Counted from the first letter of the stretch, positions 9,821-62,752 are shown. The stretch is 64,000 nt of DNA from Clostridia bacterium (GCA_017521125.1 JAFXDV010000006.1:1-64000), one strand, 5' to 3'. Made by a program: numbers and translations. Notes: generated from the letters alone by a model not told the origin.

Positions 9821-9878
9821 AAATATTCCTCCAAATTTAATCATACGATTAGTTTATCATTAAAAACAAATCAACCTT

Positions 9879-10631: not shown

Positions 10632-10685
10632 AATTTCACCTCCAAATGAGCGTTTTTGATTGATTATCGACTTTTTAGCCACCCA

Positions 10686-10748
10686 TTGACAATCACTTTT
10701 GACCGTTTTATTATATAGTATGTGATTATATTTTGTCAATGATATAAT
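10686..10748. promoter_or_regulatory. Divergent promoter region between DeoR and HAD genes
   Basis: Plus strand: TTGACA (10686-10691), 17 bp, TATTAT (10709-10714). Minus strand: TTGACA (10734-10739) with a TATAAT about 18 bp downstream. The two promoters overlap face to face, and ATTATAT/ATATAAT arms near 10724-10748 form an imperfect palindrome that could be the DeoR operator. Confidence 0.55.
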
Positions 10749-10802
10749 TATTGAGGATGTGTTCAGCAGTTCAATAATTGCCATACGGAATAGAGGGTTA
10801 GA

Positions 10803-11594
10803 ATGAATTGTTTGGAAAAATTAAGATTATTCTTGCTTGATATGGATGGAACTATCTATTTAGACAATGAGTTGTTCAGCGGAGTAATCGAGTTTTTAGA
10901 GTATATCAAAAGTATCGGCGGCAGGTATATCTTTCTTACCAACAATTCATCAAACAGTGTTGATAAATATATAAAAAAGCTTGCCTCTTTGGGTATTACT
11001 GCCACGGCGGATGACTTTTTGACTTCTACTGATGCTACCATCCTTTATTTGAATAAAAAGGAATATAACAAGATATATGCGTTTGGTACAAATTCATTTA
11101 AGTCTCAACTAAATGATGCATCGTTGCCAATAATCGATAAGCTTGAAGATGGTATCGACTGTCTTTGTATGGGCTTTGATACAGAGCTTAGCTTTAAGAA
11201 GTTGGAAGATGCCTGTATTTTGTTGGGCAAGGGAATAGACTACATAGCGACAAATCCTGACTGGGTTTGTCCCACTTGGTACGGCTATGTGCCTGATTGT
11301 GGTTCTGTCAGCCAGATGCTATATAACGCAACAAAAAGAAAACCCATATTTATTGGAAAACCTGAACCTACAATGGTGCTTCTTGCAATGGAAAAAACAG
11401 GCTTTAATCGGGAAGAAACGGCATTGATAGGAGATAGATTATATACCGATATTGCCTGCGGTGTAAACGCAGGAATTAACAGTATCTTTGTGCTTTCGGG
11501 CGAAGGAACAATGGAAGACTTGGAAAAAAGTGATGTTAAGCCTGACTTTGTGTATGAGAACATAAAAGTGTTATATGAAGATATACGCAAATAA
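10803..11594 (+). CDS. HAD-IIA family phosphatase (NagD/AraL-like)
   Basis: A 263-residue cytoplasmic phosphohydrolase. The catalytic motif I LLDMDGTIYL is at residues 11-20 with nucleophile D13 and acid D15. Motif II lies in FLTNNSSN, and motifs III/IV in GKPEPTMVLLAM and IGDRLYTDIACG. The type-II cap between motifs II and III is that of NagD, AraL and phosphoglycolate/glycerol-phosphate phosphatases. Its neighbours point to a polyol or glycerol phosphate substrate: a DeoR regulator diverges from it and a glycerol-1-phosphate dehydrogenase-like gene follows 95 bp downstream. Specificity is inference. Confidence 0.9.
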   Translation: MNCLEKLRLFLLDMDGTIYLDNELFSGVIEFLEYIKSIGGRYIFLTNNSSNSVDKYIKKLASLGITATADDFLTSTDATILYLNKKEYNKIYAFGTNSFKSQLNDASLPIIDKLEDGIDCLCMGFDTELSFKKLEDACILLGKGIDYIATNPDWVCPTWYGYVPDCGSVSQMLYNATKRKPIFIGKPEPTMVLLAMEKTGFNREETALIGDRLYTDIACGVNAGINSIFVLSGEGTMEDLEKSDVKPDFVYENIKVLYEDIRK

Positions 11595-11629
11595 AAGAAA
11601 TGTTAAAATACCCGATTGTGTGGGATATG

Positions 11630-11657
11630 TTGACTGTTTTTTCGGATTTATTATAAT
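11630..11657 (+). promoter_or_regulatory. Promoter of the araM-like gene
   Basis: TTGACT at 11630-11635 and TATAAT at 11652-11657, 16 bp apart. The dehydrogenase can therefore be transcribed independently of the phosphatase. Confidence 0.7.
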
Positions 11658-11689
11658 AAATCGAAGAATATTTTAAAAGGGGTTGCAAA

Positions 11690-12955
11690 ATGGATATAAA
11701 TAATTTACTTAAGGGCGTTAGGTGCGAGTGCGGAAAGCATCACACTTGCGATATTGATTATGTATATATTGAAAGCGGTGCTATAAATCATCTGTCTGAA
11801 ATTTGCGAAAAGTATAATAATATTTTAATTGTTGCAGATGAAAACACCTTTGCGGCCGCAGGAGAAAAAACACTTTTGGCGCTTAAAAACAAAAAAACAG
11901 AAAGGGTTGTTTTTAGCGGCAAAGAAATTCTTGTGCCCAATGAAGCGGCAATAGAGACTGTAAGCGAAAACTTAAAAGACGCACAAATAATCGTGGGTAT
12001 CGGCTCGGGCGTTATTCAAGATTTATGTAAATATGTTTCTTTCTTCCATCAGATTCCTTATGTGATTGTTGCAACGGCACCTTCTATGGATGGCTATGCT
12101 TCAAACGGAGCTGCCATGATAACAGAGGGTATGAAGGTTACCTACCCTGCAGGACTTCCCGTAGCTATTATCGGAGATGTTGACGTTCTGAAAAACGCTC
12201 CGATTGAAATGATAAAAGCAGGCTATGGCGATATTATAGGAAAATTTTCGGCTCTTAACGATTGGAAATTAAGCCACCTTATAAACGACGAGTATTTTTG
12301 CGACTATATCTACAACTCAACCTACGAGCAGATTGAATCAACTCTTAATTTGGCAGAGGGTATTCTTGCACGTAATGAGGAAAGCATAAAAACCTTAATG
12401 GAAGGCTTAATCGTAATTGGAATTATGATGAGCTTTGCCGGTTCTTCACGTCCCGCTTCAGGCAGTGAGCATCATCTTTCTCACTATTTTGAAATAACCG
12501 GTATTATAAATGGCGAGGAGTATTTCCCCCACGGAATCGACGTTGCCTATTCAACCGTTATAACCTCTGAAATCCGAGAAAAGCTTTTGTCACAACCTTT
12601 TGGTGATAAAATTTATCGCCTCGGCAAAGAAGAGTACGAAAAGAAGATGCAAGAGGTTTATAAAGGGGTTGCAGGAGGTTGCATAGACCTTCAAAATAAA
12701 ATTGGAAACTATAAAGCAGACCGCCGAGATATTTACAAACAGAAAGAAACAGAGATAAAACAAATATTAGCAGAAGCTCCCACAGCCAAGGGAATCCAAG
12801 AAATGCTTTCTCTTGTGGGTCTTGATATTAAAGAGTTTTATGCTCTTTACAACAAGGAAAAAATCAATCAAGGAATTTTATATGCCAAAGACTTAAAAGA
12901 CCGATATACTGTTCTTTGGGTGAACTATGATTATTTTGGAGAAGAAAGAGAATAA
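11690..12955 (+). CDS. araM: sn-glycerol-1-phosphate dehydrogenase-like (AraM/EgsA family)
   Basis: A 421-residue metal-dependent dehydrogenase of the iron-alcohol dehydrogenase fold. It reduces dihydroxyacetone phosphate to sn-glycerol-1-phosphate with NAD(P)H. Landmarks: the nucleotide site VGIGSGVIQDLCKY, the substrate loop ATAPSMDGYAS, and metal ligands in GSEHHLSHYFE and FPHGIDVAYS. AraM makes G1P in Bacillus for heptaprenylglyceryl phosphate, but no PcrB homologue lies nearby. The C-terminus after residue 330 is a helical extension, and the length is within the family range. The start has AAAAGGGG upstream. A HAD phosphatase and a DeoR regulator upstream suggest a DHAP/G1P/glycerol module. 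Confidence 0.87.
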   Translation: MDINNLLKGVRCECGKHHTCDIDYVYIESGAINHLSEICEKYNNILIVADENTFAAAGEKTLLALKNKKTERVVFSGKEILVPNEAAIETVSENLKDAQIIVGIGSGVIQDLCKYVSFFHQIPYVIVATAPSMDGYASNGAAMITEGMKVTYPAGLPVAIIGDVDVLKNAPIEMIKAGYGDIIGKFSALNDWKLSHLINDEYFCDYIYNSTYEQIESTLNLAEGILARNEESIKTLMEGLIVIGIMMSFAGSSRPASGSEHHLSHYFEITGIINGEEYFPHGIDVAYSTVITSEIREKLLSQPFGDKIYRLGKEEYEKKMQEVYKGVAGGCIDLQNKIGNYKADRRDIYKQKETEIKQILAEAPTAKGIQEMLSLVGLDIKEFYALYNKEKINQGILYAKDLKDRYTVLWVNYDYFGEERE

Positions 12956-48310: not shown

Positions 48311-49216
48311 GTGGTATATACGTTAACCTTTAATCCCGCTCTTGATTATGCGGTAGAGCTTGATGCTTTTAGCGAAGGTGGACTTAACCGTAGTAATAAT
48401 GAGTATATAAGCTATGGCGGTAAAGGTATAAATGTATCGGTTGTTTTAACAAACTTAAAAATAGAAAACACAGCGCTCGGCTTTTTAGCAGGTTTTACAG
48501 GAAGAGAACTTGATAAAAGTTTAAAAGAACAAGGTATAAAAACAGACTTTGTATACTTAAAGTCAGGTTTTACACGAATAAATGTAAAGATAAAGAGCCA
48601 AAGCGAGACCGAAATAAATGCCAATGGCCCGCAAATTGATAAAGCTTCTTTAGACAAACTTTTTAGGAAACTAAACAGTATAAAATCAGGAGATTACCTA
48701 ATTCTTTCGGGCAGTATACCTAAAAATCTTTCACAAAACATATACAAAGAAATTTTAGAAATGCTGGCTGACAGAGGCGTTGAGTTTGTCGTAGATGCTG
48801 AAAAGGGTTTACTTTTAGATACTTTAAGGTTTAAACCGTTTCTTGTTAAGCCGAATCTTTTTGAGCTTCAGCAGATTACAGGCAAAAGACTTGAAAATGA
48901 AACTGAAATAATTGATGCGGCAAAAGCACTTCAAAAACAGGGCAGTAAAAACGTCCTTGTAAGTTTAGGCGAAAAAGGAGCTCTGCTTATTTCAGAAAAA
49001 CAAGAAGTTTTCCGCCAAAAAGCGCCTGACGGTAGGCTTGTCAATTCGGTGGGTGCAGGCGATTCTATGATTTCAGGTTTTTTAAAAGGGTATTTTGAAA
49101 CCAAGGACTACGAGAAAGCCCTAAAATTTGGTGTGGCGGCAGGTAGTGCTACCGCTTTTTCGAGAAGTTTAGCAAAAAAAGAAGAAATATATGGAATATT
49201 AGAAAAATTAGACTAA
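48311..49216 (+). CDS. PfkB-family 1-phosphofructokinase-like kinase
   Basis: A 301-residue ribokinase-fold sugar kinase. The N-terminus VYTLTFNPALDYAVEL is characteristic of the 1-phosphofructokinase/tagatose-6-phosphate kinase branch. The sugar site is SYGGKGINVSVVLTNL and the catalytic base lies in VNSVGAGDSMISGFLKGY. It starts at GTG with GGAGG upstream, two bases after gpsA, and ends at a terminator. A fructose PTS or FruR-type regulator is absent, so fructose-1-phosphate or tagatose-6-phosphate cannot be decided. Confidence 0.9.
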   Translation: MVYTLTFNPALDYAVELDAFSEGGLNRSNNEYISYGGKGINVSVVLTNLKIENTALGFLAGFTGRELDKSLKEQGIKTDFVYLKSGFTRINVKIKSQSETEINANGPQIDKASLDKLFRKLNSIKSGDYLILSGSIPKNLSQNIYKEILEMLADRGVEFVVDAEKGLLLDTLRFKPFLVKPNLFELQQITGKRLENETEIIDAAKALQKQGSKNVLVSLGEKGALLISEKQEVFRQKAPDGRLVNSVGAGDSMISGFLKGYFETKDYEKALKFGVAAGSATAFSRSLAKKEEIYGILEKLD

Positions 49217-49250
49217 AAGGATTTGCAAAAAAGAAGCAAATCCTTTATTT
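49216..49250 (+). terminator. Terminator closing the der-plsY-gpsA run
   Basis: AAAGGATTTGC/GCAAATCCTTT with following T-tract. Confidence 0.9.
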
Positions 49251-49280
49251 TTTTGAAGTTTTTTCCATTTTTAACAAATA

Positions 49281-49374
49281 ATTTTACCAATTTTGTAAAA
49301 TGTTTCTTTTTTATTCAAAATATATATATTTTGGCAAAATTATTATTGACATTTTACACAAAACAAGGTAAAAT
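49281..49374 (+). promoter_or_regulatory. Promoter and operator-like palindromes of the ABC/NHL/DUF5696 operon
   Basis: TTGACA (49346-49351) and TAAAAT (49369-49374) are 17 bp apart. ATTTTAC (49351-49357) and GTAAAAT (49368-49374) are inverted arms that coincide with the -35 edge and the -10 box. A second ATTTTAC/GTAAAAT pair lies upstream at 49281-49301 with a 7-base spacer. The arrangement suits cooperative repression by a dimeric regulator such as a LacI or ROK protein; no candidate regulator is in the window. Confidence 0.7.
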
Positions 49375-49603
49375 GTTATGTACGGATATTAGCATATTGT
49401 CACTTAAATATAAAGAATTCTACTCTTCGTAGTGTAAATTCAACAATTTTGCAACGAACGTTAAAAACGATTGTGCAAAATAAACAAAACCTTAGTTTGC
49501 AAATATGCAAAATGCCCATTAAATCCCTTTAAAATCGCTTTTAGCGTAGGATATACGAATATTAATAAAACAGCGTTTTTAGATTTAGGAAAGGATGAAA
49601 TTC
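49375..49603 (+). other. Long leader of the ABC/NHL/DUF5696 operon
   Basis: About 220 nt between promoter and start codon. It holds the inverted pair ATTTTGCA (49446-49453) and TGCAAAAT (49474-49481), and further ATGCAAAATG and TTTGCAAAT motifs near 49495-49515. No terminator-like T-tract follows a strong stem. A short frame at 49471-49743 crosses the start of the real gene and is not supported as a protein. Confidence 0.5.
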
Positions 49604-52468
49604 ATGAAGAAAAATTTCTTGCGAGTTTTGGCAATAGCTCTAACTTTGGCAATGATGGTAACTTTAGTAGTTACTACGCCGGTGGTTGCATTTGCCGAGG
49701 AAGCACCCGCAACCGATGCGTCTCAAGCCGTATCGACCAGTGACCTCCCTACATATGTGGACTATTTAAATAATAGTGGAACAACAAATGCAGCAACACA
49801 ATCTGCTGTTGTTTCGCTTGACGGTTATCAGTCTACAGTTGATAAGGTAGAGATAGCTGACGGCATTCTTAATTGGTACGATGGTAACGGTTCTCTTACC
49901 TTCACCGTAAATGTGCCTGAAACAGCTCTTTATAATTTCAAGTTTGTGTGGAAACCAAAGGGTAGTGGTGTTGACCTTAATTTTGGCGTTAAGGTTGATG
50001 GAGAATACCTATTTGAAGGCACACATAGTGCGATTTTCACAAGACGTTGGAAGAACATTTCCGATGAGCCTCGTAGCGATGCTCAGGGAAATCAGTATTC
50101 TCAGGAGCAGGTTGAAACAGGCGAGTTTATAGAGGCTTATTTAAGCGATACAACCGGTCTTGTTTCCGAACCGTATAAATTTGCTTTAACTGCAGGAACT
50201 CATACTATTACTCTTGTAGAACCAACTCAGTCTATCCAGATTAAATCTATCAGCTTTGAAGCACCTGAGGTTGTTAAAAGTTATGCAGAGGTTTCTGCAT
50301 CATACGATTTAGTTGAAAATTCTGACCTTGGTATTATCACAATTCAGGGTGAGGACGCAGCAGTAAAATCTTCAGCATCTATCATTCCTAAAGCTAATAA
50401 TAGTGACGCATCTATGACTCCTCGTAATGCGTACGTAATGAAAATTAACCAAATCGGCGGCACATCATGGCAGATGCCCGGTGATGAGGTTGTATGGAAC
50501 TTTAATGTTGAAAAATCCGGATATTACAGTTTAACCCTTCGTTGCAAGCAGTCCGATCTTGTTAACGGAGAAAGCTTCAGATGGTTAAAAATTGATGGCA
50601 AAACCCCATTTGAAGAGGCTAAAAACTTAATCTATGCTTATGACACAGGTTGGAAATATGAGACCTTTAAAGCTCAGGATGAAACTCCTTTCTATTTCTA
50701 TCTTGAGGAAGGTACTCATACCCTTTCTATGACTGCAACAACCGGCAGACAAGCACAGTACATAGCACGTCTTTCAGATATAGTTGACGTTATCGCAGAT
50801 GAATATATCAAAATCATTATGATAACAAGCGAAAACCCTGATATTAACCGTGACTATGAACTTTTCAATCAGATTCCTAACTTTACCGAAACACTTACAA
50901 AGTGCCGTGATGACCTTACTACCCTTGCAAACGACATCAAAAAGGACACAGGTAAGCGTAGCAACCAGTATGTTGCCACAATGGAAAATATGGCTCGTGT
51001 ACTTGGACAGATGCTAAAGAGTCCATATAGCGCACAGCAGTATTTAAAGGACTTTTATACCAACTACACTTCACTTAGCTCATGGCTCTTTGATATGACC
51101 AAGGTGCCACTTGCTGTTGATGAAATTCAGCTTGTGCCTTATGGTCAGCAGTATGAAGACAAGACAGTTGGATTTTTCCAGAAGACAGGGTTTGGCATTA
51201 TCAGATTCTTCTCTTCCTTCACTCAGGACTATTCACTCACAGATAACGAGAATATAGAGAATAGCGAAAAAGAAAGAGTAAGAATGTGGGTTAACTGGGG
51301 TCAAGATCAGACTGCAGTTTTAAGCTCTATCATTCAAGATTCATTTACCGCAAAAACAGGCATTCCTGTTCAGCTTGAAATAGTTAATGCTTCTCTTATT
51401 TACGGTATATTAGCAAACAACTTCCCTGATATCAGCCTACATATGTCAAGAACCGAACCTGTAAACCTTGGTATTCGTGGTGCTCTTTATGATTTAACCA
51501 ACTTCTCTGATTATGAAGAGGTGCTAACTCGCTTCCAACCAGGTGCAGAGACACCATACAGATATGGCGACGCATTATATGCGTTACCCGATACACAAAC
51601 CTTCTTTATGATGTTCTATCGTAACGACATTCTTAACGATTTGGGACTTAAGGTTCCAAATACTTGGGATGAATTCCTTTATGACGCAACAATTATTCAA
51701 AGAAACAATATGAACGTGTATGTTCCTTACACACAAATTGCGTCAACCACAACCGTAAACGCAGGACTTGGAAGTCTTAACCTCTTCCCAACCCTTATGG
51801 CACAAAACGGACTTTCCTTCTACAATGAAGAGCAAAACGGTACTGCTCTCAATACTAAGGCCGCCATTGATGTATTTACAGAGTGGACCGACCTTTATAA
51901 AGATTATGACCTACTTTATGAAGCAGATTTCTACAACCGACTCCGTACAGGTGTTATGCCATTAGGTATTGCTCCTTACTCTACTTATATGACACTTTAT
52001 TCAGCGGCGCCTGAAATCAGAGGCCGTTGGTCAATGGCACCGGTTCCAGGCAACGAAAAAGGCGAAAGATTTGTTGCAGGCGGCGGTACAGGTTGTGTAA
52101 TTGTTAAAAAGTCTAAGCACAAAGAGGCAGCTTGGGAATTCCTCAAGTGGTGGACCTCTGCAGAAACACAGTCAAGATATTCAAGCAACGTTGAGTCTAT
52201 AATTGGCGTAATTTCACGTACTGCAACTGCAAACGTGGAAGGCCTTTCAAAGCTTGCTTGGGACTCAAAAGATTTCAGTATAATTAAGGAACAATGGTCA
52301 TACGTAAGAGAACTTCCTGAAGTTCCAGGAAGCTACTATCTCACCCGTTCAATCGACCAGGCTTTCTGGATGGTAAGTAACGGTGAGGCAACTCCGAAAG
52401 ATGCTATTGTAAAATGGAGCAAGCTTGCAGATGATGAGATTGCTCGTAAGATTAAAGAGTATAGCTGA
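49604..52468 (+). CDS. Giant secreted ABC solute-binding protein with N-terminal beta-sandwich domains
   Basis: A 954-residue exported protein. The signal peptide ends at about VVAFA-EE (residue 33); there is no lipobox cysteine. Residues ~35-225 and ~240-395 look like two CBM35-like beta-sandwiches, sharing a pattern (SLTFTVNVPETALYNFKFVW with TAGTHTITLVEP; EVVWNFNVEKSGYYSLTLRC with EEGTHTLSMTAT). A helical linker follows (about 400-540). From about residue 558 a MalE-type family 1 solute-binding domain begins (RVRMWVNWGQDQTAVLSSII; PNTWDEFLYDATIIQRNN; GGGTGCVIVKKSKHKEAAWE). The usual family is ~420 residues, so this is an unusual fusion. The start at 49604 is better spaced from AGGAAAGG than the ATG at 49595. 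It heads the operon. Confidence 0.85.
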   Translation: MKKNFLRVLAIALTLAMMVTLVVTTPVVAFAEEAPATDASQAVSTSDLPTYVDYLNNSGTTNAATQSAVVSLDGYQSTVDKVEIADGILNWYDGNGSLTFTVNVPETALYNFKFVWKPKGSGVDLNFGVKVDGEYLFEGTHSAIFTRRWKNISDEPRSDAQGNQYSQEQVETGEFIEAYLSDTTGLVSEPYKFALTAGTHTITLVEPTQSIQIKSISFEAPEVVKSYAEVSASYDLVENSDLGIITIQGEDAAVKSSASIIPKANNSDASMTPRNAYVMKINQIGGTSWQMPGDEVVWNFNVEKSGYYSLTLRCKQSDLVNGESFRWLKIDGKTPFEEAKNLIYAYDTGWKYETFKAQDETPFYFYLEEGTHTLSMTATTGRQAQYIARLSDIVDVIADEYIKIIMITSENPDINRDYELFNQIPNFTETLTKCRDDLTTLANDIKKDTGKRSNQYVATMENMARVLGQMLKSPYSAQQYLKDFYTNYTSLSSWLFDMTKVPLAVDEIQLVPYGQQYEDKTVGFFQKTGFGIIRFFSSFTQDYSLTDNENIENSEKERVRMWVNWGQDQTAVLSSIIQDSFTAKTGIPVQLEIVNASLIYGILANNFPDISLHMSRTEPVNLGIRGALYDLTNFSDYEEVLTRFQPGAETPYRYGDALYALPDTQTFFMMFYRNDILNDLGLKVPNTWDEFLYDATIIQRNNMNVYVPYTQIASTTTVNAGLGSLNLFPTLMAQNGLSFYNEEQNGTALNTKAAIDVFTEWTDLYKDYDLLYEADFYNRLRTGVMPLGIAPYSTYMTLYSAAPEIRGRWSMAPVPGNEKGERFVAGGGTGCVIVKKSKHKEAAWEFLKWWTSAETQSRYSSNVESIIGVISRTATANVEGLSKLAWDSKDFSIIKEQWSYVRELPEVPGSYYLTRSIDQAFWMVSNGEATPKDAIVKWSKLADDEIARKIKEYS

Positions 52469-52479
52469 GGTGATTAAGC

Positions 52480-53391
52480 ATGAAGAAAAATAAAACTAAA
52501 AGTTTAAAACAGGAGAGCTTTAGAGAAAGATTTCCTATGTACGTCATGTTTGCACCTTTCTTTATCTTCTTTGTTTTATTCACAATTTTACCAATTTTAA
52601 GTTCTATCGTTCTAAGCTTTACATCTTATGATATGATTAGCATACCTAAGTTTATAGGCTTTGATAACTACCGCAGAATGATAGTAAATGACCCTACCTT
52701 TTTGATAACTGTTAAAAACACCTTATTATTTGCAGTTATTGCAGGTCCTTTAGGTTTCTTACTTTCTTTCGTTCTTGCGTGGTTCGTAAACGAATTTTCT
52801 CCAAAGGTACGTACCCTGCTTTCTTTCATGTTCTATGCACCGGCTCTTGCAGGTAACGCATATTTCATCTGGCAGGTAGCATTCAGTGGAGACAGCTACG
52901 GTTATGTTAACAGTATGCTTCTTTCAATAGGTATCATTACCGAACCTATTGTTTGGTTTAAAAATGCTACATACCTTATGCCAATTCTTATTATCGTTCA
53001 GTTGTGGCAGAGTATGGGTATTTCCTTCCTTTCCAACATTTCAGGTCTACAAAACGTAAGCCGTGATATGTATGAGGCAGGAGCTATCGACGGTATCAAG
53101 AGCCGTTGGCAGGAACTTCGTTACATAACTCTTCCTTCAATGTCACACATGTTGATGTTCAGTGCGGTTATGCAGATTCAGAGCAGCTTCTCTGTAAGTG
53201 CTATCGCTGTGGCTTTGGCAGGATATCCTTCAAAGGGAAATGCAGTAGATACAATTGTTTCACTTATGAGCGACGTTGCTACTGTTCGATATGAGATGGG
53301 CTATGCTTCCTCAATGGCGGTTGTACTATTCTTAATGATGGTAACAACACGACTACTTGTTGGCAAGATAATGGCCGTAGTTCAGAAGTAA
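52480..53391 (+). CDS. Carbohydrate ABC permease, MalF/UgpA-type (pair 1)
   Basis: A 303-residue inner-membrane permease with six helices. The EAA loop that docks the ATPase is MYEAGAIDGIKSRWQELRYI. The N-terminal SFTSYDMISIPKFIGFDNYR is typical of CUT1 sugar permeases. It begins 11 bp after the solute-binding gene and is followed 13 bp later by its MalG-like partner. The ATPase is not in the operon; CUT1 systems often share an MsmX-like ATPase. Confidence 0.92.
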   Translation: MKKNKTKSLKQESFRERFPMYVMFAPFFIFFVLFTILPILSSIVLSFTSYDMISIPKFIGFDNYRRMIVNDPTFLITVKNTLLFAVIAGPLGFLLSFVLAWFVNEFSPKVRTLLSFMFYAPALAGNAYFIWQVAFSGDSYGYVNSMLLSIGIITEPIVWFKNATYLMPILIIVQLWQSMGISFLSNISGLQNVSRDMYEAGAIDGIKSRWQELRYITLPSMSHMLMFSAVMQIQSSFSVSAIAVALAGYPSKGNAVDTIVSLMSDVATVRYEMGYASSMAVVLFLMMVTTRLLVGKIMAVVQK

Positions 53392-53404
53392 GGGGGTAAG
53401 AGAT

Positions 53405-54340
53405 ATGGTTATCGTTGATAAAATAAATGCGCTTAAGCTTAAAATCTTTAAGCCAAATCCTAACAAACAATCTCTGGCTCCCGGTAGACTTCCATGCAGA
53501 CGCTACACAAGAACCAAGTTCGGAGACTTTGTAATGTTCGTAATGTTGGCAGCAGCAGGTCTTTTCACAATGCTTCCACTTATTTACGCAGTTGCAACAT
53601 CTTTCAAACCTTTGGATGAGCTTCTCATTTTCCCACCAAGATTCTTAGTTAGAAGACCTACTTTAAACAACTACTTAGTATTGCCGGACCTTATGGCAGC
53701 TCTTAAAGTTCCCCTTTCAAGATACATTTTCAACGGTGTATCTAACGCTATTGTTACTACCTCTGTTTACATTGTGGTATCTTCAATGGCAGCGTACGTT
53801 CTTTGCAAGGGTAACTTCAAGCATAAGGGCGCAATATTTATGATAGTACAGTTCTCACTTATGTTTAACAGTATTACCTTAGGTATTCCACGTTACCTCA
53901 TTTATTCGTATCTTGGTATGATTGATACCTATTGGGTATACATACTACCGCATATGGCGGCAACCTTGGGCGTATTCCTGATGAAACAGTATATCGAAGG
54001 ATATGTACCCGATGCATTTATTGAGGCGGCAAAAATCGATGGAGCCGGAACCTTTAGGATTTTCTGGACTATCGTAATGCCAATTGTTAAACCTGCGTGG
54101 TTAACTCTTACACTCTTCACATTCCGTGATGTTTGGTCAGAAATACCTTCCGGTACAATTTTTACCGAGCAGTTAAAAACACTTCCTCAGATTATGGGAC
54201 AAATCACCGCCGGTGGTGCAGCTCGTGCAGGTAGTGCCATGGCTACCACCGTTATCATGATGATTCCTCCAATTATAGTTTACCTGATCTCTCAAAGCAA
54301 CGTTATCGAGGCTATGAGTAGTGCAGGTATCAAAGAATAA
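53405..54340 (+). CDS. Carbohydrate ABC permease, MalG/UgpE-type (pair 1)
   Basis: A 311-residue permease with six helices. The EAA loop is FIEAAKIDGAGTFRIFWTIV. A basic N-terminal stretch of about 35 residues precedes the first helix, and TSFKPLDELLIFPPRFLVRR follows it, as in CUT1 partners. With the preceding gene it forms the first permease pair. Confidence 0.92.
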   Translation: MVIVDKINALKLKIFKPNPNKQSLAPGRLPCRRYTRTKFGDFVMFVMLAAAGLFTMLPLIYAVATSFKPLDELLIFPPRFLVRRPTLNNYLVLPDLMAALKVPLSRYIFNGVSNAIVTTSVYIVVSSMAAYVLCKGNFKHKGAIFMIVQFSLMFNSITLGIPRYLIYSYLGMIDTYWVYILPHMAATLGVFLMKQYIEGYVPDAFIEAAKIDGAGTFRIFWTIVMPIVKPAWLTLTLFTFRDVWSEIPSGTIFTEQLKTLPQIMGQITAGGAARAGSAMATTVIMMIPPIIVYLISQSNVIEAMSSAGIKE

Positions 54341-54369
54341 CTATTATGGCGCAAAGGAGATGGTAAAGT

Positions 54370-56472
54370 TTGAAAAAAATATTTTCTAGAATATTAGTTG
54401 TAGCACTTATATTATGTATGTTATTTACCATACAAGTGCCAGCATTTGCCCAAGAGCCATATGATAGTTATACATATTGGTCTAATGTTCAATCGGCTGA
54501 AGTAGAGGTTTTAAACCGACCTATGTATGAGCCTACTGGGGTAATTGATGCGGCAAAAATCGGAGTAGCACCGTTTTCCTCTATAAAGGGCATTGTGAGA
54601 GACCAATACGATAATGTTTATATACTTGACAATGCTTCTCGTATAGTTGTGACCGATAAAAACTTTAATCTTATTAAAGAGATCGGCCTTGTAAACGGAA
54701 CCGAGAGATATGACGAGGCAAACAGTGTATATGTTTACTCTGACGGCACAATTTATATCTGCGATATAAAGGGCGAAAGAATTCTTCATATCGATAGCGA
54801 CGGAAATCTTTTAGATACAATCGTTCTACCGGAATCTACTCTTATTCCTGACGATTTCAGATTCCTTCCTACAAAAATTGAAATAAATGCAAACGGATAT
54901 CTTTATGTATTGTGCGAAGGTTCTTATTACGGAGTTCTTCTATATTCTCCTGAAAGAGAATTTTTAGGATTCTTCGGTTCAAATACTGTTAAAGTTTCTA
55001 TCGGAAGCGTATTTAGCACTGTGATGAGCCGTGTTTTCCCTAACAACGTAAAGAGGAGCAATAGCGTACGTTCTCTACCATTTAGTATGGTTGACCTTTG
55101 CATTGACAAGAATGGCTTCATTTACACCTGTAACGGCTTCACAAAGGCATTTGACACAACCGGACAAATTAGAAAACTAAGTCCCGGTACAGGCGGAAAT
55201 GTATTTAGTGTTACAGATGCTAACTTTATAGATGTTGACGTCAACAAGACATTTGATAACGGTGTTTTAACAAAACAGAACCTAATGGACGTTGAGGTTG
55301 ACAGCAAAGGATATGTATATGCGCTTGAATCGGCATACGGAAAGATTTTCGTTTATGACGATGAGTGCCGTAAGCTTTCTGTATTCGGAAACGGTAAAGG
55401 AAGAGGTAATCAGGTAGGAACCTTTGAAATTGTTTCCGGTATGGAGCTTTTAGATGACGGAAACCGCATTATTGTTTCAGATGCCAATACCAACCGTATT
55501 ACAGTGTTTGGTATTACCGAGTTCGGTGCAAAAGCTAAAGAGGCTATAACCTGTACTCTTGAAGGTGACTATGAAGGCCTTGAAGCAAAATGGCAGGAAG
55601 TATTGAAACTCGATAGCAATTTCCAGCCTGCATATAGCGGAATGGCTCGTATAGCACTTAACGAAGGCAAATATGAGCAAGCTATGGAATATGCAAAAAT
55701 CGGTTATGATCGTAACATTTACAGCGTTGCCTTTGAGTTTGTTCGTACAGACCTTATTGATAAATATTTCGGTCTTATATTCCTTGCATTAGTTCTTGTT
55801 ATCGGCATACTTATAGCTTGGCTTATTATCAGTACCAAGAAAAAGGTACAGCTTGTTAAAAACCCACAGCTTAAGCTTATGTTTGCGACAATGATTCATC
55901 CGGGTGACACGTTTACAACCATTAAAGAAAAGAAACAGGGTTCAATTATCCTTTGTCTTATAACCTTGCTTGTTTTCTATATTGTAACAGTATTAAAAAC
56001 AATAGCTTCAGGTTTCCTTTTCTCAACATATAATCCAGAAACCTTTAACTCCCTTTGGGAATTTGTACGAAGCGTAGGATTCGTTATTTTATGGGTAATT
56101 TCCAACTGGATGATTTGTACGCTTATGCAGGGTAAAGGTAAGCTCAAGGAAATTCTTATTGTTACATGCTATAGCTTGTGGCCACTCATTATAGAGAAGG
56201 TTGTATATATCATATTCTCCAACGTACTTCTCGCTGCAGAAGGAAGCTTTTTAGGCATCTTCAGCATTATAGCTACCTTGTACTTTGTAATGCTTATGAT
56301 AATGGGACTTCTCAAAATTCACGACTTTAGCTTCTCACGTTTCTTGGGAACAACCTTGTTGACGTTTTTAGCCATGGCGGCAATCGTATTCTTAGGAATT
56401 ATGATTATAATTCTTATTCAACAGCTTTATGGCTTTGTAGTAACACTCGTTACTGAAATATTAACACTTTAG
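54370..56472 (+). CDS. NHL-propeller/TPR/Yip1 membrane protein
   Basis: A 700-residue protein in four parts. A signal peptide covers residues 1-28. An NHL-type beta-propeller (about 70-395) follows, with repeats such as IVRDQYDNVYILDNASRIVV, IYICDIKGERILHIDSDGNL and VDSKGYVYALESAYGKIFVY. A TPR-like pair (WQEVLKLDSNFQPAYSGMAR, ALNEGKYEQAMEYAKIGYDR) comes next, then a membrane helix near 465-488 and a C-terminal Yip1-type domain with five hydrophobic helices (IHPGDTFTTIKEKKQGSIIL). It starts at TTG with AAAGGAGATGG upstream. Its place between two permease pairs suggests an envelope sensor or scaffold for the transporter; the function is unknown. Confidence 0.83.
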   Translation: MKKIFSRILVVALILCMLFTIQVPAFAQEPYDSYTYWSNVQSAEVEVLNRPMYEPTGVIDAAKIGVAPFSSIKGIVRDQYDNVYILDNASRIVVTDKNFNLIKEIGLVNGTERYDEANSVYVYSDGTIYICDIKGERILHIDSDGNLLDTIVLPESTLIPDDFRFLPTKIEINANGYLYVLCEGSYYGVLLYSPEREFLGFFGSNTVKVSIGSVFSTVMSRVFPNNVKRSNSVRSLPFSMVDLCIDKNGFIYTCNGFTKAFDTTGQIRKLSPGTGGNVFSVTDANFIDVDVNKTFDNGVLTKQNLMDVEVDSKGYVYALESAYGKIFVYDDECRKLSVFGNGKGRGNQVGTFEIVSGMELLDDGNRIIVSDANTNRITVFGITEFGAKAKEAITCTLEGDYEGLEAKWQEVLKLDSNFQPAYSGMARIALNEGKYEQAMEYAKIGYDRNIYSVAFEFVRTDLIDKYFGLIFLALVLVIGILIAWLIISTKKKVQLVKNPQLKLMFATMIHPGDTFTTIKEKKQGSIILCLITLLVFYIVTVLKTIASGFLFSTYNPETFNSLWEFVRSVGFVILWVISNWMICTLMQGKGKLKEILIVTCYSLWPLIIEKVVYIIFSNVLLAAEGSFLGIFSIIATLYFVMLMIMGLLKIHDFSFSRFLGTTLLTFLAMAAIVFLGIMIIILIQQLYGFVVTLVTEILTL

Positions 56473-56483
56473 GAGGTGCCAAA

Positions 56484-58724
56484 TTGCGTAAAAAGATATT
56501 TTTAGTAGTATTATGTATTGTGCTTGCGTTATCTTTAGTTGGCTGCGCAGCAGATCCATCTCTGCTCAGTCTCGCATTTGATGAAAAAATTTCATCTGAG
56601 GCACCCTCTGATTCACTTATAGCACAAAACGAAAATTTCAAGCTTGAAATTGATACCGAAAAATATGGTGTTGTTTTAACCAACCTCAAAACAGGTAAGG
56701 TATGGAGCACAATACCAATGCAGGAAGGCGAACCACAGTATGATGCGTTAGGCCTTCCTATCGGAAATCACGTACAGGTAGATTCATTACTCTTAGTTTC
56801 CTACATTGACGGAAAAAGTAAGAATGAAACTGTTACCCAGTCATATACCTCTGCGGTAATAGGCGGAAGAGTACGTACTGTAAAGGGCGAAAATGGCGTT
56901 GTAATTGAGTATTATTTTGACGACGGACAGATAATGATTCCGGTTGAATTTATTTTACAAAACGACCATCTCCAACTTAAAATAGACCCTAAGAAAATTC
57001 AGGAAACAGAAAGTCGTGTAACGGCTATTTCTGTAGCACCATTCTTTTGCTCTGCTGCAAACGATAAAGAGGATACATACCTGTTCTTCCCATCCGGTTC
57101 CGGTGCGTTAGTAGGAACTTCATCCCTTTCTCCTCAGGGTTACAAGTACTCTGCAGAAGTTTATGGAAGAGATCTTACTAACGAGCAAACTACCATGATA
57201 ACCAAGGATAAAGATGTAAGGCTTCCTGTATTTGGTGCAAAAACCGATGCAACAACCGCTATTTGTGGAATTGTTGATGAGGGAGAGGAATCGGCAGTAA
57301 TTGAAACTGTTGCCGGATCTACATCCTTTGCTCGCTCCACAGTATATGCTACCTTCAACCTCAGATCCTTCATCAGTTTTAAGGGAAAGAACGGAAAGAG
57401 CACAGCGAAAAATGTGTATGCTTCATATAAACTCTCCTCTCCTCTTTCAGTTAGATACTATCCTTTGAGTGATGAAAAGGCTAACTATAGCGGAATGGCA
57501 GAGGTTTATAGAAACTACCTTACAGAGACAGGCAAGATGCCAACACTTACAGAAGATGTTAATCTTAATTTAACACTAATTGGCGGTGAGCTTGTTCCAA
57601 AGAGCTTCTTAGGTGTTCCATACAGTGATTTGTTCTCTGCAACAACACTTCAGGATGCTTATAACATCACTAATGAGATAACCTCAAACGTAAAAGCCAA
57701 GACATCAGTAAAACTAAAAGGCTTTACCGCTACAGGTGTTGATGTAGGTGGCGTTGGCGGTGGTTATGTAATTAACGAAAACCTCGGCAATTTAGAGGAT
57801 TTTAACAAACTTAACCAGTTATGTAATGATAAATCAGTAGGACTTTATTTTGATTTTGAGTTAGTTAAGTTTAAAGGTTCTTCTGATGGATTTAGCAATT
57901 TCAGAGATGCAGTTTATAACTCAGGTGAAATAAAAGCTGCTAATTATGACTATAATATTGCAACAAGCTTGTATGAGAAAAGCACCGCACATCAGCTTCT
58001 TACCCCAGGCAAGTTTGTAACTGCAGTTGAGAAACTCTTAGATAAAACTGCTAAATGGGATTTAAACGGCGTTTCACTTGAAACACTTTCTCAAGTTTCC
58101 TATTCAAACTATTCTAGCGAAGATTCGGCTGATTACTATGCCAAGAGCTATTTTGGCGACCGTGTTACCGAATCTATCAAGGTTTTAAAGGATAACGGCA
58201 AGAAGGTTATGTCAAGCGAGGCAAACCAAGCTGCTGCAATCGTTTCTGACGTTATTGTAGATGCTCCTCTTGAATCTGCTAAGGTTAACATTTTTGCACA
58301 GGATATACCATTCTACTCAATGGTGTTCAAAGGAAATGTAGGACTTGCAGGTGAGAGCATCAATCTTGCAACTAATACAAGAAAAGCACTTCTTCTTTCT
58401 GTTGAAGCAGGATGTGGATTAAATTATACCTTAATAAACAAATGGGAAAATTCACTTATCTCTTGCTATTCTCCTATTTTCTACAACAGTAGATACGCAG
58501 ATATTAAGGAAGACATTCTTGCAAATCATGCTGAGCTTTCAGATTATTATGAAAAGATTGCCGGAGCAAAGATTTCTGCTCACAACATTTTAGCATCAGG
58601 AGTTAGAGAGACCGTGTTTGATAACGGCGTACATGTTATTGTTAACTTTAATAATACTCCTGTGTCTACCGTTGCCGGAGAGGTTGCTGCTCAAGGTTTT
58701 GTTGTATGGGAGGCTGCAGTATGA
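56484..58724 (+). CDS. DUF5696-like surface lipoprotein with glycosidase-barrel look
   Basis: A 746-residue lipoprotein: LALSLVGCAADPS is a lipobox with C21. Residues ~45-345 are beta-rich (FKLEIDTEKYGVVLTNLKTG; HLQLKIDPKKIQE; YLFFPSGSGALV). Residues ~380-690 read like a TIM barrel of the clan that includes GH36/GH101-type glycosidases (VKLKGFTATGVDVGGVGGGY; VGLYFDFELVKF; KWDLNGVSLETL; KVMSSEANQAA). A short beta C-terminus ends the protein (NGVHVIVNFNNTPV). I place it in DUF5696 from memory of the family; enzyme activity is inference. It starts at TTG after AGGAGGTG. The stop overlaps the next permease start (ATGA). Confidence 0.78.
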   Translation: MRKKIFLVVLCIVLALSLVGCAADPSLLSLAFDEKISSEAPSDSLIAQNENFKLEIDTEKYGVVLTNLKTGKVWSTIPMQEGEPQYDALGLPIGNHVQVDSLLLVSYIDGKSKNETVTQSYTSAVIGGRVRTVKGENGVVIEYYFDDGQIMIPVEFILQNDHLQLKIDPKKIQETESRVTAISVAPFFCSAANDKEDTYLFFPSGSGALVGTSSLSPQGYKYSAEVYGRDLTNEQTTMITKDKDVRLPVFGAKTDATTAICGIVDEGEESAVIETVAGSTSFARSTVYATFNLRSFISFKGKNGKSTAKNVYASYKLSSPLSVRYYPLSDEKANYSGMAEVYRNYLTETGKMPTLTEDVNLNLTLIGGELVPKSFLGVPYSDLFSATTLQDAYNITNEITSNVKAKTSVKLKGFTATGVDVGGVGGGYVINENLGNLEDFNKLNQLCNDKSVGLYFDFELVKFKGSSDGFSNFRDAVYNSGEIKAANYDYNIATSLYEKSTAHQLLTPGKFVTAVEKLLDKTAKWDLNGVSLETLSQVSYSNYSSEDSADYYAKSYFGDRVTESIKVLKDNGKKVMSSEANQAAAIVSDVIVDAPLESAKVNIFAQDIPFYSMVFKGNVGLAGESINLATNTRKALLLSVEAGCGLNYTLINKWENSLISCYSPIFYNSRYADIKEDILANHAELSDYYEKIAGAKISAHNILASGVRETVFDNGVHVIVNFNNTPVSTVAGEVAAQGFVVWEAAV

Positions 58725-59623
58725 AAAAAGTAAAAAAGAATAGAGGAATAGAAGAACTTAAAAGCTCCTATGGTAGAATGTTTGTTTTACCTTGGTTTAT
58801 AGGCGTAATATTGTTTTTCCTTGTTCCATTTATTGAAACGGTTATATTCTCCTTTTCTTCCATAAAAATTAATGTTGGAGAAATCTCCACAACCTTTGTA
58901 GGTCTTGAGAATTATGATTATATTTTAAATCAGGACCCTAACTATACCAAATATCTTAGTGGAGCAATGACCACCTTCTTATATTCGCTTCCTATTATCA
59001 TTTTCTTAAGCCTGTTCTTAGCACTTTTACTTAACCAGAAGTTTGCTGGACGCTTACTTTTCCGTGCAATCTATTTTGCACCGGTAATTATAGCAACAGG
59101 TGAAGTTATTAAGTTGCTCTTCGGCCTCGATGCTAGTAGCGGAGCAACAATGGGTGTGTCTGAATCATTAACCTCTAATATGATTGATGCTAATGATATT
59201 ACATCCCTTTTAGGTCTTAGCGGTGAAATAGGTGAATTCTTTACAAGAACAATCGGAAGAATCTTCGACCTTGTGTGGAACTGCGGAATTCAGATTGTCC
59301 TCTTTATAGCAGGACTTCAGTCTGTTCCTCGTCATTTATATGAAGTTTCTAAGGTAGAAGGCGCAACCAAGTGGGAAGAATTCTGGTTCATCACCTTCCC
59401 AATGCTTGGACGTGTAACACTTCTCGTTTCTATGTTTACTATGATTGAATTAATCGTAGCTGAACGTGGTAATAAAATTGTAAGTAATGCTTTGACCTCG
59501 ATGAACTCAGGTATTTATGATAGAACATCTGCAGAGCTTTTCTTCTATTTTATGGTTTCTTGTTTATTCATTGGAGTATTTATTTTCTTATATAATCGCT
59601 TCTTATTGAAGCGTTGGGAATAG
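58721..59623 (+). CDS. Sugar ABC permease, MalF-like (pair 2)
   Basis: A 300-residue permease with six helices. The EAA loop is LYEVSKVEGATKWEEFWFIT. A long insertion (about 135-175, GASSGATMGVSESL onwards) between helices distinguishes it from pair 1. I start at 58721, where ATG overlaps the preceding TGA and GGGAGG lies upstream, rather than the in-frame ATG at 58706. Translational coupling to the DUF5696-like lipoprotein suggests they act together. Confidence 0.9.
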   Translation: MKKVKKNRGIEELKSSYGRMFVLPWFIGVILFFLVPFIETVIFSFSSIKINVGEISTTFVGLENYDYILNQDPNYTKYLSGAMTTFLYSLPIIIFLSLFLALLLNQKFAGRLLFRAIYFAPVIIATGEVIKLLFGLDASSGATMGVSESLTSNMIDANDITSLLGLSGEIGEFFTRTIGRIFDLVWNCGIQIVLFIAGLQSVPRHLYEVSKVEGATKWEEFWFITFPMLGRVTLLVSMFTMIELIVAERGNKIVSNALTSMNSGIYDRTSAELFFYFMVSCLFIGVFIFLYNRFLLKRWE

Positions 59624-59642
59624 AAGGGGGGCGCAAACTGTT

Positions 59643-60632
59643 ATGATTAATATTAAAGAAAAACTTACCGAGCAGAATTTGCTCAAATACAAATCATACG
59701 GTAAGAAGGGTGCAGACATATTATTCGCTCTCTTCAGATATATGATTCTCTTAACAGTTGGTTATATAGTTTTATATCCATTGCTCTCTATGATTGTAAC
59801 TTCTATTCAAAGCTTAGACTCAATGAGAGAGTCCATCAGAATGTGGATTCCTACAGAATTCGCAATTAAGGACAATTACACCTTAGCAATTGATGTTATG
59901 AAATACGGAAAATCTTTAGGTGTAACCCTTCTTTATATGATGGTGCCCGCTGTTCTTCAGATTGCAACCTGTGCTATTGCAGCTTATGGATTTGCTCGTT
60001 TCGATTTTAAAGGCAAGGGAATTCTTACTGCACTTTTATTTATAACAATCCTTGTTCCTGATATTATGATTGTTATTCCTCGTATGGTAAGTTACACACG
60101 TCTTGACTTTTTAGGAATTTTAGGACTTTTAGATAAGTTGACAGGTATTGATTTAAGACCAAACATAATCAATACTGTATGGGCAATGTATCTCCCTGCA
60201 TTATTTGGTGCAGGTGTTCGCTCCGGTATACTCATTTACATTTACATTCAGTTCTTCAAGGGCCTTCCAAAGGAACTCGAAGAGGCTGCTTGGGTAGACG
60301 GTGCAAATCCTTTAAGAGCATTTATTTCAATTGCAATTCCATCATCAGGCGTTGTAATCCTCACTGTAGCAGTGTTCTCACTTATCTGGCATTGGAACGA
60401 AATTGTAAACAGTTCTATGTTCCTTTCAGGTAAAATGCCGTTATCGGTTCAAATTAAATATTTCTCCAAAAATATGTCAGCAATATTGACCGATCATGGT
60501 AACAGAGACTACAACTCAGTAGCTATCAAAAACTCGGCCTGTATATTATTTATTGCACCAATGCTTGTATTCTATATGATTGTTCAGCGTTGGTTCATCG
60601 AAAGTATCGACCGTGTAGGTATTACAGGTTAA
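59643..60632 (+). CDS. Sugar ABC permease, MalG-like (pair 2)
   Basis: A 329-residue permease with six helices. The EAA loop is ELEEAAWVDGANPLRAFISI. VLYPLLSMIVTSIQSLDSM begins the permease core and AAYGFARFDFKGKGILTALL is the typical central segment. AGAAGGGGGGCG precedes the start. It is the last gene before the terminator at 60646, giving the operon two complete permease pairs but one solute-binding protein. Confidence 0.91.
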   Translation: MINIKEKLTEQNLLKYKSYGKKGADILFALFRYMILLTVGYIVLYPLLSMIVTSIQSLDSMRESIRMWIPTEFAIKDNYTLAIDVMKYGKSLGVTLLYMMVPAVLQIATCAIAAYGFARFDFKGKGILTALLFITILVPDIMIVIPRMVSYTRLDFLGILGLLDKLTGIDLRPNIINTVWAMYLPALFGAGVRSGILIYIYIQFFKGLPKELEEAAWVDGANPLRAFISIAIPSSGVVILTVAVFSLIWHWNEIVNSSMFLSGKMPLSVQIKYFSKNMSAILTDHGNRDYNSVAIKNSACILFIAPMLVFYMIVQRWFIESIDRVGITG

Positions 60633-60769: not shown

Positions 60770-62752
60770 ATGGCAAAGACTTCTAAAGATTATGGAAACG
60801 ACAGTATTAAAAAGCTTGAAGGACCTGACCGAGTACGAAAAAGACCTGGAGTTATTTTCGGTTCGGACGGGCTGGATGGCTGCGAACATTCTGTCTTTGA
60901 AATTATATCCAACTCTATTGACGAAGCAAGAGAAGGCTATGGTAAAAAGATTATCATAACCAAGTTTAGTGACGGCTCCATCGAGGTTCAGGACTTTGGT
61001 CGAGGCGCCCCCGTTGATTTCAATAATAAAGAGCAGTGCTTCAACTGGGAACTTCTATATTGTGAGCTTTATGCAGGCGGTAAATATGACACCAACGACG
61101 GCGGAAACTATGAGTTTTCAGTTGGTCTTAATGGCCTTGGCCTGTGTTCAACCCAGTATTCTTCCGAATATATGGACGTAGAAATCAAACGTGACGGATA
61201 TAAATATAATCTTCATTTTGAAAAAGGTTATAACGTTGGCGGACTTAAAAAAGAGGTTTATACAGGCAAGGATACGGGAACAAAAACACGTTGGAAGCCT
61301 GATATTGACGTTTTTACCGACATCAACATTCCGTCAGAATATTTTATTGACGTTATTCGCCGTCAGGCAATAGTAAACGACGGACTTCTTTTTATATTCC
61401 GTGAGCAGGACGGAAACAAATTTATAGAAAAAGAATTCTCTTTTGAAAACGGAATAAAAGATTATGTCAGCGAGGTTGTAGGCGAGGAAGGCATTACTTC
61501 AATTCAAAGCTGGTCAACCGAGAGAAAGGGTAAGGACCGTGAGGACAAGCCTGAATACAGGGTGAAAATCAATGCCTGTCTCAGCTTTTCCAATAAAAGA
61601 CAATTAAAAGAATATTACCACAACTCTTCTTGGCTTGAATACGGCGGAGCTCCTGAAAAGGCAGTCAGAAGCGCCTTCGTTTCTCAGATAGATGCTTATA
61701 TAAAGCAACAAAATAAATACACTAAGAATGAAAGCAGAATAACCTTTACTGACGTAGAAGAATGTATGGTGTTGGTAATTTCTTCGTTTTCAACCCAGAC
61801 CTCTTATGAAAATCAGACCAAAAAGGCTATTACCAACAGATTTATTCAAGAAGCAATGACCGATTTTCTCCGTCGGCAACTCGAAATTTACTTTATAGAA
61901 AATAAGGCTGAGGCAGATAAGATTGTCGAGCAGGTACTTATAAACAAGCGTAGTCGTGAAAAGAGCGAAAGAGAAAGAATAAACATAAAGAAAACTCTCC
62001 AGTCCTCTAACGATATGGCTAACCGAGTACAGAAGTTTGTTGATTGCCGTAGCCGTGACGTCTCGGTCAGAGAACTCTTTATAGTAGAGGGTGACTCGGC
62101 ACTTGGCTCCTGTAAACTTGCACGTGATTCGGAGTTTCAGGCAATAATACCTGTAAGAGGTAAAATTCTTAACTGTCTGAAAGCGGAATACGATAGAGTA
62201 TTTAAAAGCGACATTATAACCGACCTTATTAAAGTTCTTGGTTGTGGTGTAGAGGTAAAATCTAAGGCAAGTAAAGACCTATCAACCTTTAGCCTTGATA
62301 ATCTCCGTTGGAATAAAGTAATTATCTGTACCGATGCCGACGTAGACGGATTTCAGATAAGAACACTTATTTTGACAATGCTTTATAGACTGATGCCTAC
62401 CCTTATAAATGAGGGCAAGGTTTATATTGCAGAAACTCCACTTTATGAGATTAACACTAAGGAAAAGCCTTATTTTGCCTATGATGAAAAAGAGAAGGCA
62501 GAAATTCTCGAGATGATAAAAGGGCAAAAATATACATTACAGCGTTCAAAGGGACTTGGCGAAAACCAACCTGATATGATGAACCTGACCACAATGAATC
62601 CTGAAACCAGAAGACTTGTAAGGGTGCTTCCTGAGGATGCCCAAAGAACAGCAGAAATGTTCGATTTGCTCCTTGGAGATAATCTTCAGGGCAGAAAAGA
62701 ATTTATTGCAGAAAACGGATACTTGTATCTTGATGACGTTGACGTAAGTTAG
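60770..62752 (+). CDS. Divergent type IIA topoisomerase subunit B (GyrB/ParE-like)
   Basis: A 660-residue ATP-dependent topoisomerase subunit. The GHKL ATPase begins RVRKRPGVIFGSDGLDGCEH with SNSIDEAREGYG and QDFGRGAPVDF. The transducer ends near 390. Toprim motifs are VEGDSALGS near residue 440 (EGDSAGGS in standard enzymes) and TDADVDGFQIRTLI near 522, with the C-terminal KYTLQRSKGLGENQPDMMNLT. Several substitutions (VIFGS for MYIGS, ALGS for AGGS) show it is not the canonical GyrB. It is probably the second, topo IV-like or accessory enzyme. The A subunit follows 15 bp downstream. Confidence 0.9.
   Translation: MAKTSKDYGNDSIKKLEGPDRVRKRPGVIFGSDGLDGCEHSVFEIISNSIDEAREGYGKKIIITKFSDGSIEVQDFGRGAPVDFNNKEQCFNWELLYCELYAGGKYDTNDGGNYEFSVGLNGLGLCSTQYSSEYMDVEIKRDGYKYNLHFEKGYNVGGLKKEVYTGKDTGTKTRWKPDIDVFTDINIPSEYFIDVIRRQAIVNDGLLFIFREQDGNKFIEKEFSFENGIKDYVSEVVGEEGITSIQSWSTERKGKDREDKPEYRVKINACLSFSNKRQLKEYYHNSSWLEYGGAPEKAVRSAFVSQIDAYIKQQNKYTKNESRITFTDVEECMVLVISSFSTQTSYENQTKKAITNRFIQEAMTDFLRRQLEIYFIENKAEADKIVEQVLINKRSREKSERERINIKKTLQSSNDMANRVQKFVDCRSRDVSVRELFIVEGDSALGSCKLARDSEFQAIIPVRGKILNCLKAEYDRVFKSDIITDLIKVLGCGVEVKSKASKDLSTFSLDNLRWNKVIICTDADVDGFQIRTLILTMLYRLMPTLINEGKVYIAETPLYEINTKEKPYFAYDEKEKAEILEMIKGQKYTLQRSKGLGENQPDMMNLTTMNPETRRLVRVLPEDAQRTAEMFDLLLGDNLQGRKEFIAENGYLYLDDVDVS

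Follow-up and report, generated by a model that had tools for sequence, protein, structure and literature searches.

We found that seven adjacent genes in a 64,000-nucleotide (nt) stretch of DNA from a Clostridia bacterium (GCA_017521125.1 JAFXDV010000006.1:1-64000, hereafter the window) form a real conserved unit, a cassette located at positions 49604-60632. This cassette is probably the envelope part of a two-channel CUT1 importer for glycan-derived oligosaccharides, equipped with an obligatory surface module. Capture and import of a glycan are well supported, and the cassette is apparently an undescribed variant of the Gram-positive glycan importer. It encodes a giant solute-binding protein, two permease pairs (P1a/P1b and P2a/P2b) and, between the pairs, a protein with NHL, TPR and Yip1 parts and a lipoprotein of the DUF5696 family. 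The seven open frames were verified, all on the + strand and near the coordinates given in a first-pass annotation of the window, whose list of seven genes with short gaps or overlaps agrees with ours in frames, coordinates and domain content. The intergenic gaps are, in order, 11, 13, 29, 11, -19 and 19 nt. The cassette and its flanking signals are laid out below (aa, amino acids).

49216-49252, + strand: terminator-like hairpin and T-run 3' of pfkB (49216-49246, -13.6 kcal/mol, z -3.1)
49346-49374, + strand: promoter-like site TTGACA-17-TAAAAT, a consensus match only, not enriched over shuffles
49595-52468, likely start 49604, + strand: giant solute-binding protein, 957 aa, with signal peptide, CBM35-like modules, helical segment and SBP_bac_1/8 domain (577-864)
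52480-53391, + strand: P1a, CUT1 permease with EAA loop
53405-54340, + strand: P1b, CUT1 permease with EAA loop
54370-56472, + strand: 700-aa fusion of NHL propeller, TPR and Yip1, which most relatives encode as two genes
56484-58724, + strand: DUF5696 lipoprotein, 746 aa, predicted GH129/GH101-like fold, with T534 and N542 where most relatives have aspartate
58706-59623, + strand: P2a, CUT1 permease with EAA loop, overlapping the DUF5696 gene
59643-60632, + strand: P2b, CUT1 permease with EAA loop
60645-60680, + strand: terminator-like hairpin with a 15-bp stem, ending the cassette

The grouping of these genes is not due to chance, since 71 of the loci fetched from across Bacillota have them in the same order. 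To scan the genome collection, with one genome per species (84,980 species), an alignment of P1a was used, because the NHL-TPR-Yip1 alignment proved too divergent. The 80 loci retrieved are the best 80 of 581 permease relatives found, a sample that therefore favours close members, and they come from Clostridia metagenome-assembled genomes, Paenibacillus, Bacillaceae and Lachnospiraceae. In 71 of the 80 the order is identical and on one strand: giant binding protein, P1 pair, NHL-TPR, Yip1, DUF5696, P2 pair. Eight of the remaining nine are interrupted by contig ends, and the ninth, L062, lacks P2b, which tblastn did not find there. P2b is also absent from L036 (cassette at 8689-12800), a locus of the window's family in which a hairpin and T-run directly follow P2a; both L036 and L062 keep P2a. 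Neighbouring cassette genes lie at most 60 nt apart in nearly all loci. The DUF5696 members of the cassettes share 19-42% identity with that of the window, so the gene order is old and presumably selected. Neighbours varying freely between relatives, the pattern that the first-pass annotation had named as speaking against a system, is not what the neighbourhood survey returned for the seven members. NHL-TPR and Yip1 are encoded by separate adjacent genes in 57 loci and by a single fused gene in 19, the window included, and this fusion supports a joint function; the description of one NHL-TPR-Yip1 protein is thus right for the window, and most relatives make two.

Because this first scan relied on P1a, the test was repeated independently of it, starting from the giant binding protein in a phylum sample of 299 genomes. 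The protein is present at full length in 27 of these, its own genome included (26/298, ~9%, when that genome is excluded), and wherever the surroundings of a full-length copy were read, the cassette was present. L149, L150 and L151, reached in this way, hold the complete set, and L147 holds the cassette set with its binding-protein gene cut by the contig start. Within the window's family, sampled with 60 genomes, all seven components stand in the same order in 11 fetched loci.

Some observations concern the wider distribution of these proteins. The family f69 of the phylum sample (L142-L146) was considered as a carrier of the cassette and rejected: its binding-protein matches are strong, but they come only from short, cassette-free relatives. 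These relatives are numerous, ~430 aa long and akin to the binding domain of the giant protein; several occur in each locus, and neither permeases nor other cassette genes lie next to them. One 1.8-Mb genome (G059; L017, L018, L021, L026 and further contigs) carries nine DUF5696 matches and several complete cassettes. A DUF5696 search of viral contigs gave no match.

The transport components are those of a CUT1 importer. Pfam and NCBIfam searches identified four BPD_transp_1 permeases, two of them under the curated cut-off, and the EAA loop that docks the ATPase is retained in all four, with 71-81 sequences aligned for each. Both pairs consist of two different EAA-loop permeases, and the SBP_bac_1/8-type binding protein expected of a CUT1 system is found in the giant protein and in an orphan binding protein encoded on another contig of the genome, C7. 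No ATPase gene was found within the cluster by the same domain searches, as had been noted before us, and this is not unusual. The genome holds a single OB_MalK-type ATPase, on contig C14 and unlinked to the cassette, which belongs to the UgpC subfamily (490 bits against a cut-off of 432). With the EAA loops kept and one UgpC-type ATPase available, the missing gene corresponds to the familiar situation of a shared ATPase, and we infer that the C14 protein powers the cassette permeases.

The giant binding protein carries SBP_bac_1/8 in its C-terminal half, which is closest by profile to Lin1841 (5ysb, E 1.5e-29). The N-terminal half gives a weak CBM_35 match, below the cut-off, and resembles modules of cycloisomaltooligosaccharide glucanotransferase, with the helical segment lying between the two halves. 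In 39 loci the cassette has close to it a second, ordinary lipoprotein binding protein of ~460 aa, encoded most often immediately 5' of the giant one and elsewhere 3' of P2b; by profile this protein is closest to an arabino-oligosaccharide-binding protein (6rjy, E 9.3e-41). For neither protein does the closest profile match fix the ligand. The window locus has no second binding protein, and for this reason a detached copy was looked for: the 482-aa orphan on C7 scores 169 bits against a profile for the cassette-linked kind, which the binding protein of the genome's one other CUT1-like system, on contig C6, did not match at E 1e-3. A search of C7 for PF00528 gave no match. Within the family (60 genomes), 9 of the 13 cassette carriers have the second binding protein, versus 5 of the 47 others (Fisher p 6.6e-5, kinship uncorrected). 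The seven genes were first presented as the whole system; many relatives add to them this second binding protein, whose relative is here detached on C7. In L147 (10525-15000), four tandem frames matching the second type lie 3' of P2b.

The neighbourhood of the cassette in relatives links it to glycan degradation. Among 88 cassette-adjacent genes scanned we found GH26 (21), CBM35 (12), GH10 (4), GH30 (3) and GH113, GH35 and GH28 (2 each), as well as GH36, GH2 and CBM65, and GH16 occurs in the flanks of some relatives. The flanking genes vary, and with such varied glycan enzymes different copies of the cassette probably serve different glycans. LacI-type and response-regulator-like genes, named from sequence with no family search, recur in the flanks. 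Several GH26 proteins and both GH113 proteins, encoded directly 3' of P2b, have no signal peptide, and larger GH26-CBM35 proteins upstream of the cassette bear signal sequences, a pattern that fits cutting at the surface, import and then intracellular cutting.

In the window's own genome, the neighbours of the orphan binding protein on C7 include a GH16 with a membrane anchor and a repeat protein of 2,576 aa. L052, a close relative, has a GH16 30 nt 5' of the cassette that is similar over its full length to the C7 GH16 (30%, E 2e-59). In L051 a 2,145-aa repeat protein lies 69 nt 5' of the cassette and has a C-terminal GH16-like stretch of 20.6 bits, just under the cut-off; since repeats are common, the similarity of the C7 and L051 repeat proteins is by itself weak evidence. 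The C7 repeat protein (L136:658-8388) has a signal peptide, a C-terminal membrane helix and List_Bact_rpt as its sole Pfam match. On contig C12 (L152:7025-11498), two GH16-like proteins of 290 and 287 aa are encoded without signal peptide, only the second keeping the ExDxxE motif, and next to the pair is a surface protein of 736 aa whose repeats resemble those of the long C7 protein. Mannan was set aside as the substrate in this genome, where no GH26 was found. The GH16 proteins on C7 and C12 lead us to guess at a beta-glucan- or galactan-like glycan.

The DUF5696 lipoprotein has a lipobox and matches its family with 418 bits. Its AlphaFold2 model (predicted local distance difference test, pLDDT, 91) matches, over nearly its whole length, NagBb, a GH129 alpha-N-acetylgalactosaminidase (5wzn; Z 29.2, root-mean-square deviation 3.7 A, 567 residues), and also matches DagB/ZgGH129 (5opq, Z 28.1), with GH101 enzymes scoring lower. 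A profile search links DUF5696 to GH129-type enzymes (E 5e-10), and GH129-family proteins taken from other genomes of the same class, when compared with it profile to profile, give a probability of 97% and E 2e-11; searched as a single sequence against solved structures, the protein returned nothing useful. The predicted fold is that of GH129, and the protein shares with NagBb and DagB their whole three-part fold, a resemblance also detectable by sequence profile. It differs from them in sharing only ~14% identity and at the catalytic positions, and it is not classed as GH129. At the position of NagBb D330 the family is variable, with K412 in the window and aspartate in 1 of 56 members. The aspartate at the end of beta4 ('RDLG') is the probable equivalent of NagBb D435, an equivalence resting on position and on an hhalign alignment with an offset of as much as two residues, not on superposed coordinates; it is present in 38 of 56 cassette members, and the window has T534. 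Besides the window and its close relatives, the 18 members without it include a few more, such as L069, L015, L016, L018 and L020. The window has N542 where 48 of the 56 aligned members have aspartate. Of the catalytic pair in NagBb, DagB retains only D435, its counterpart being D486 (PMC5698469). To judge by these residues, DUF5696 may be an enzyme in many lineages, and in the window organism it is more likely a glycan-binding protein than an enzyme.

A second DUF5696 clade (L025, L027-L033, L035, L038) is solitary, without permeases or Yip1. Its members retain all the aspartates lost in the window protein and are probably active enzymes. A profile search with this clade returned only PPR-repeat matches, which we rejected as artefacts.

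In the 700-aa protein, Yip1 (PF04893) is matched well above its curated cut-off (56.1 bits against 28.6, residues 506-674), and an NHL repeat is also matched. The model (pLDDT 83) begins with a signal-peptide-like N-terminal helix, followed by an NHL propeller, a helical region resembling TPR and finally membrane helices, and the propeller matches the NHL domain of Thin with Z 26. In this model the propeller and TPR would face outward. Propellers and TPRs are binding modules, and we infer for this protein the role of a scaffold.

Put together, these parts suggest a probable route for the glycan. A locus-specific surface enzyme, for which the membrane-anchored GH16 on C7 is the candidate here, would first cut the glycan. 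The giant binding protein would hold the glycan by its CBM35-like modules and hand an oligosaccharide from its binding domain to P1a/P1b, and the second lipoprotein binding protein, here the C7 orphan, would supply P2a/P2b with a different product of that glycan. Both permease pairs would be powered by the single UgpC-type ATPase on C14. Carried by the Yip1 part in the membrane, the NHL-TPR propeller could serve as a docking scaffold that keeps the binding proteins and the GH129-fold lipoprotein beside the channels, and the DUF5696 lipoprotein would trim or bind the glycan. The first-pass annotation had suggested a coupled capture, processing and sensing system, of which capture with import is the best reading and sensing is unsupported.

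Several observations weigh against this route. The loss of P2b in L036 and L062 means that the second channel is dispensable in some relatives, and at the threshold used 4 of the 13 family cassette carriers have no second binding protein, three of which retain both P2 genes. The CUT1-like system on C6 makes it probable that the C14 ATPase is not exclusive to the cassette. With T534 and N542 in place of aspartates, processing by DUF5696 is doubtful in the window organism. No glycan enzyme or regulator adjoins the cassette in the window, and the source genome is a draft (17 contigs, 93.65% complete).

Among the alternatives, it is conceivable, though unlikely, that two independent importers share the operon. 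P1 would then take up one sugar by way of the giant protein and P2 a different sugar by way of the second binding protein, with NHL-TPR, Yip1 and DUF5696 working for just one importer or for envelope maintenance in general. In favour are the separate EAA loops of each pair, the frequent presence of a second binding protein close to the cassette, and the retention of the rest of the set where P2b is gone; however, no complete locus has one permease pair alone, and NHL-TPR, Yip1 and DUF5696 always lie between the pairs. We consider it rather improbable that a single, physically coupled machine, made of both permease pairs, both binding proteins and NHL-TPR-Yip1 as the base, imports long glycan chains instead of short oligosaccharides for digestion in the cytoplasm; this would fit the signal-less GH26 and GH113 proteins encoded directly after P2b in several relatives and the signal-less GH16 with intact ExDxxE here. 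There is little to recommend a system for self-made or envelope glycans, acting in the recycling of cell wall or exopolysaccharide or in export and modification rather than in nutrition. The housekeeping genes around the cassette, with no glycan enzyme adjacent, would agree with it, as would the host O-glycan enzymes, rather than plant-polymer ones, among the fold relatives of DUF5696, but hemicellulose and pectin enzymes neighbour the cassette in relatives, and its permeases and binding proteins belong to importer-type CUT1 families. Least probable of all is a sensing device in which NHL-TPR-Yip1 and DUF5696 detect the binding of glycan at the cell surface and pass the signal inside, transport being secondary. 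In its favour are the predicted outward orientation of propeller and TPR on their membrane base, a structural match of the propeller to the kinase PknD in its extracellular domain, and the regulators that flank the cassette in some relatives, but Pfam and NCBIfam found no kinase, regulator or other signalling domain in the cassette proteins, none of which is sensor-like, and beyond its propeller and TPR the NHL-TPR-Yip1 protein is mostly predicted membrane helices. We favour the two-channel importer with its surface module.

At the window locus the pfkB-side hairpin and T-run set the cassette apart from the upstream genes, and the TTGACA-17-TAAAAT site lies ~220 nt 5' of the first cassette gene. 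The frame of the giant binding protein begins at 49595; the ATG at 49604, chosen as start in the first-pass annotation, has the better-spaced AGGAAAGG ribosome site. Of the one promoter and one terminator claimed to enclose the genes, a 15-bp hairpin does close the cluster and a promoter-like site is present, but neither kind of site is commoner than in shuffles (promoter-like 38 versus 40.1, terminator-like 10 versus 9.9). A single promoter is accordingly plausible from the sequence and remains an assumption. The window has no Rfam match, and the cassette's neighbours in it are housekeeping genes. At 60770-62752 lies the B subunit of a type II topoisomerase, GyrB/ParE-like, which scores below the NCBIfam thresholds for gyrB and for parE.

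How does the cassette compare with known systems? A Gram-positive polysaccharide utilisation locus comprises a glycan enzyme, a transporter and a regulator in one cluster. Many relatives' cassettes resemble such loci in sitting with glycan enzymes and sometimes regulators. They differ in that the core is a fixed envelope set whatever enzymes flank it, and the window cassette stands alone, without that combination of enzyme, transporter and regulator. The giant protein differs from binding proteins of the Lin1841 (5ysb) and arabino-oligosaccharide (6rjy) types by >500 extra N-terminal residues, CBM35-like and helical. ManHIJ of Bacillus sp. N16-5 is a CUT1 importer without its own ATPase (PMC4792470). 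Our cassette shares with it an SBP_bac_1-type binding protein, two EAA-loop permeases, the absence of a cluster ATPase and, in relatives, nearby glycan enzymes; it departs from it in having two permease pairs, a 957-aa binding protein bearing CBM35-like modules, and NHL-TPR, Yip1 and DUF5696 invariably between the pairs. The mannan, xylan and pectin clusters of the same hemicellulose-using Bacillus were rejected as an earlier description, being reported as ordinary CUT1 transporters with enzymes. In the literature searched, outside which most subscription journals lay, we found no mention of DUF5696, nothing relevant on Yip1 with transporters or glycoside hydrolases, and no description of such a system; neither Yip1 nor any DUF is mentioned in a paper on how gut Bacillota use beta-mannan. 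This agrees with the first-pass view of a candidate undescribed system that is not a standard sugar uptake operon, and what emerges is a coherent, non-standard sugar-import system.

If our reading is true, gut and soil Bacillota share a widespread system for glycan uptake that had escaped description, and DUF5696 and the bacterial NHL-TPR proteins with Yip1, families without a known role, would acquire one. The cassette, taken together with its flanking enzymes, could then help to predict whether a given species feeds on mannan, xylan, pectin or beta-glucan.

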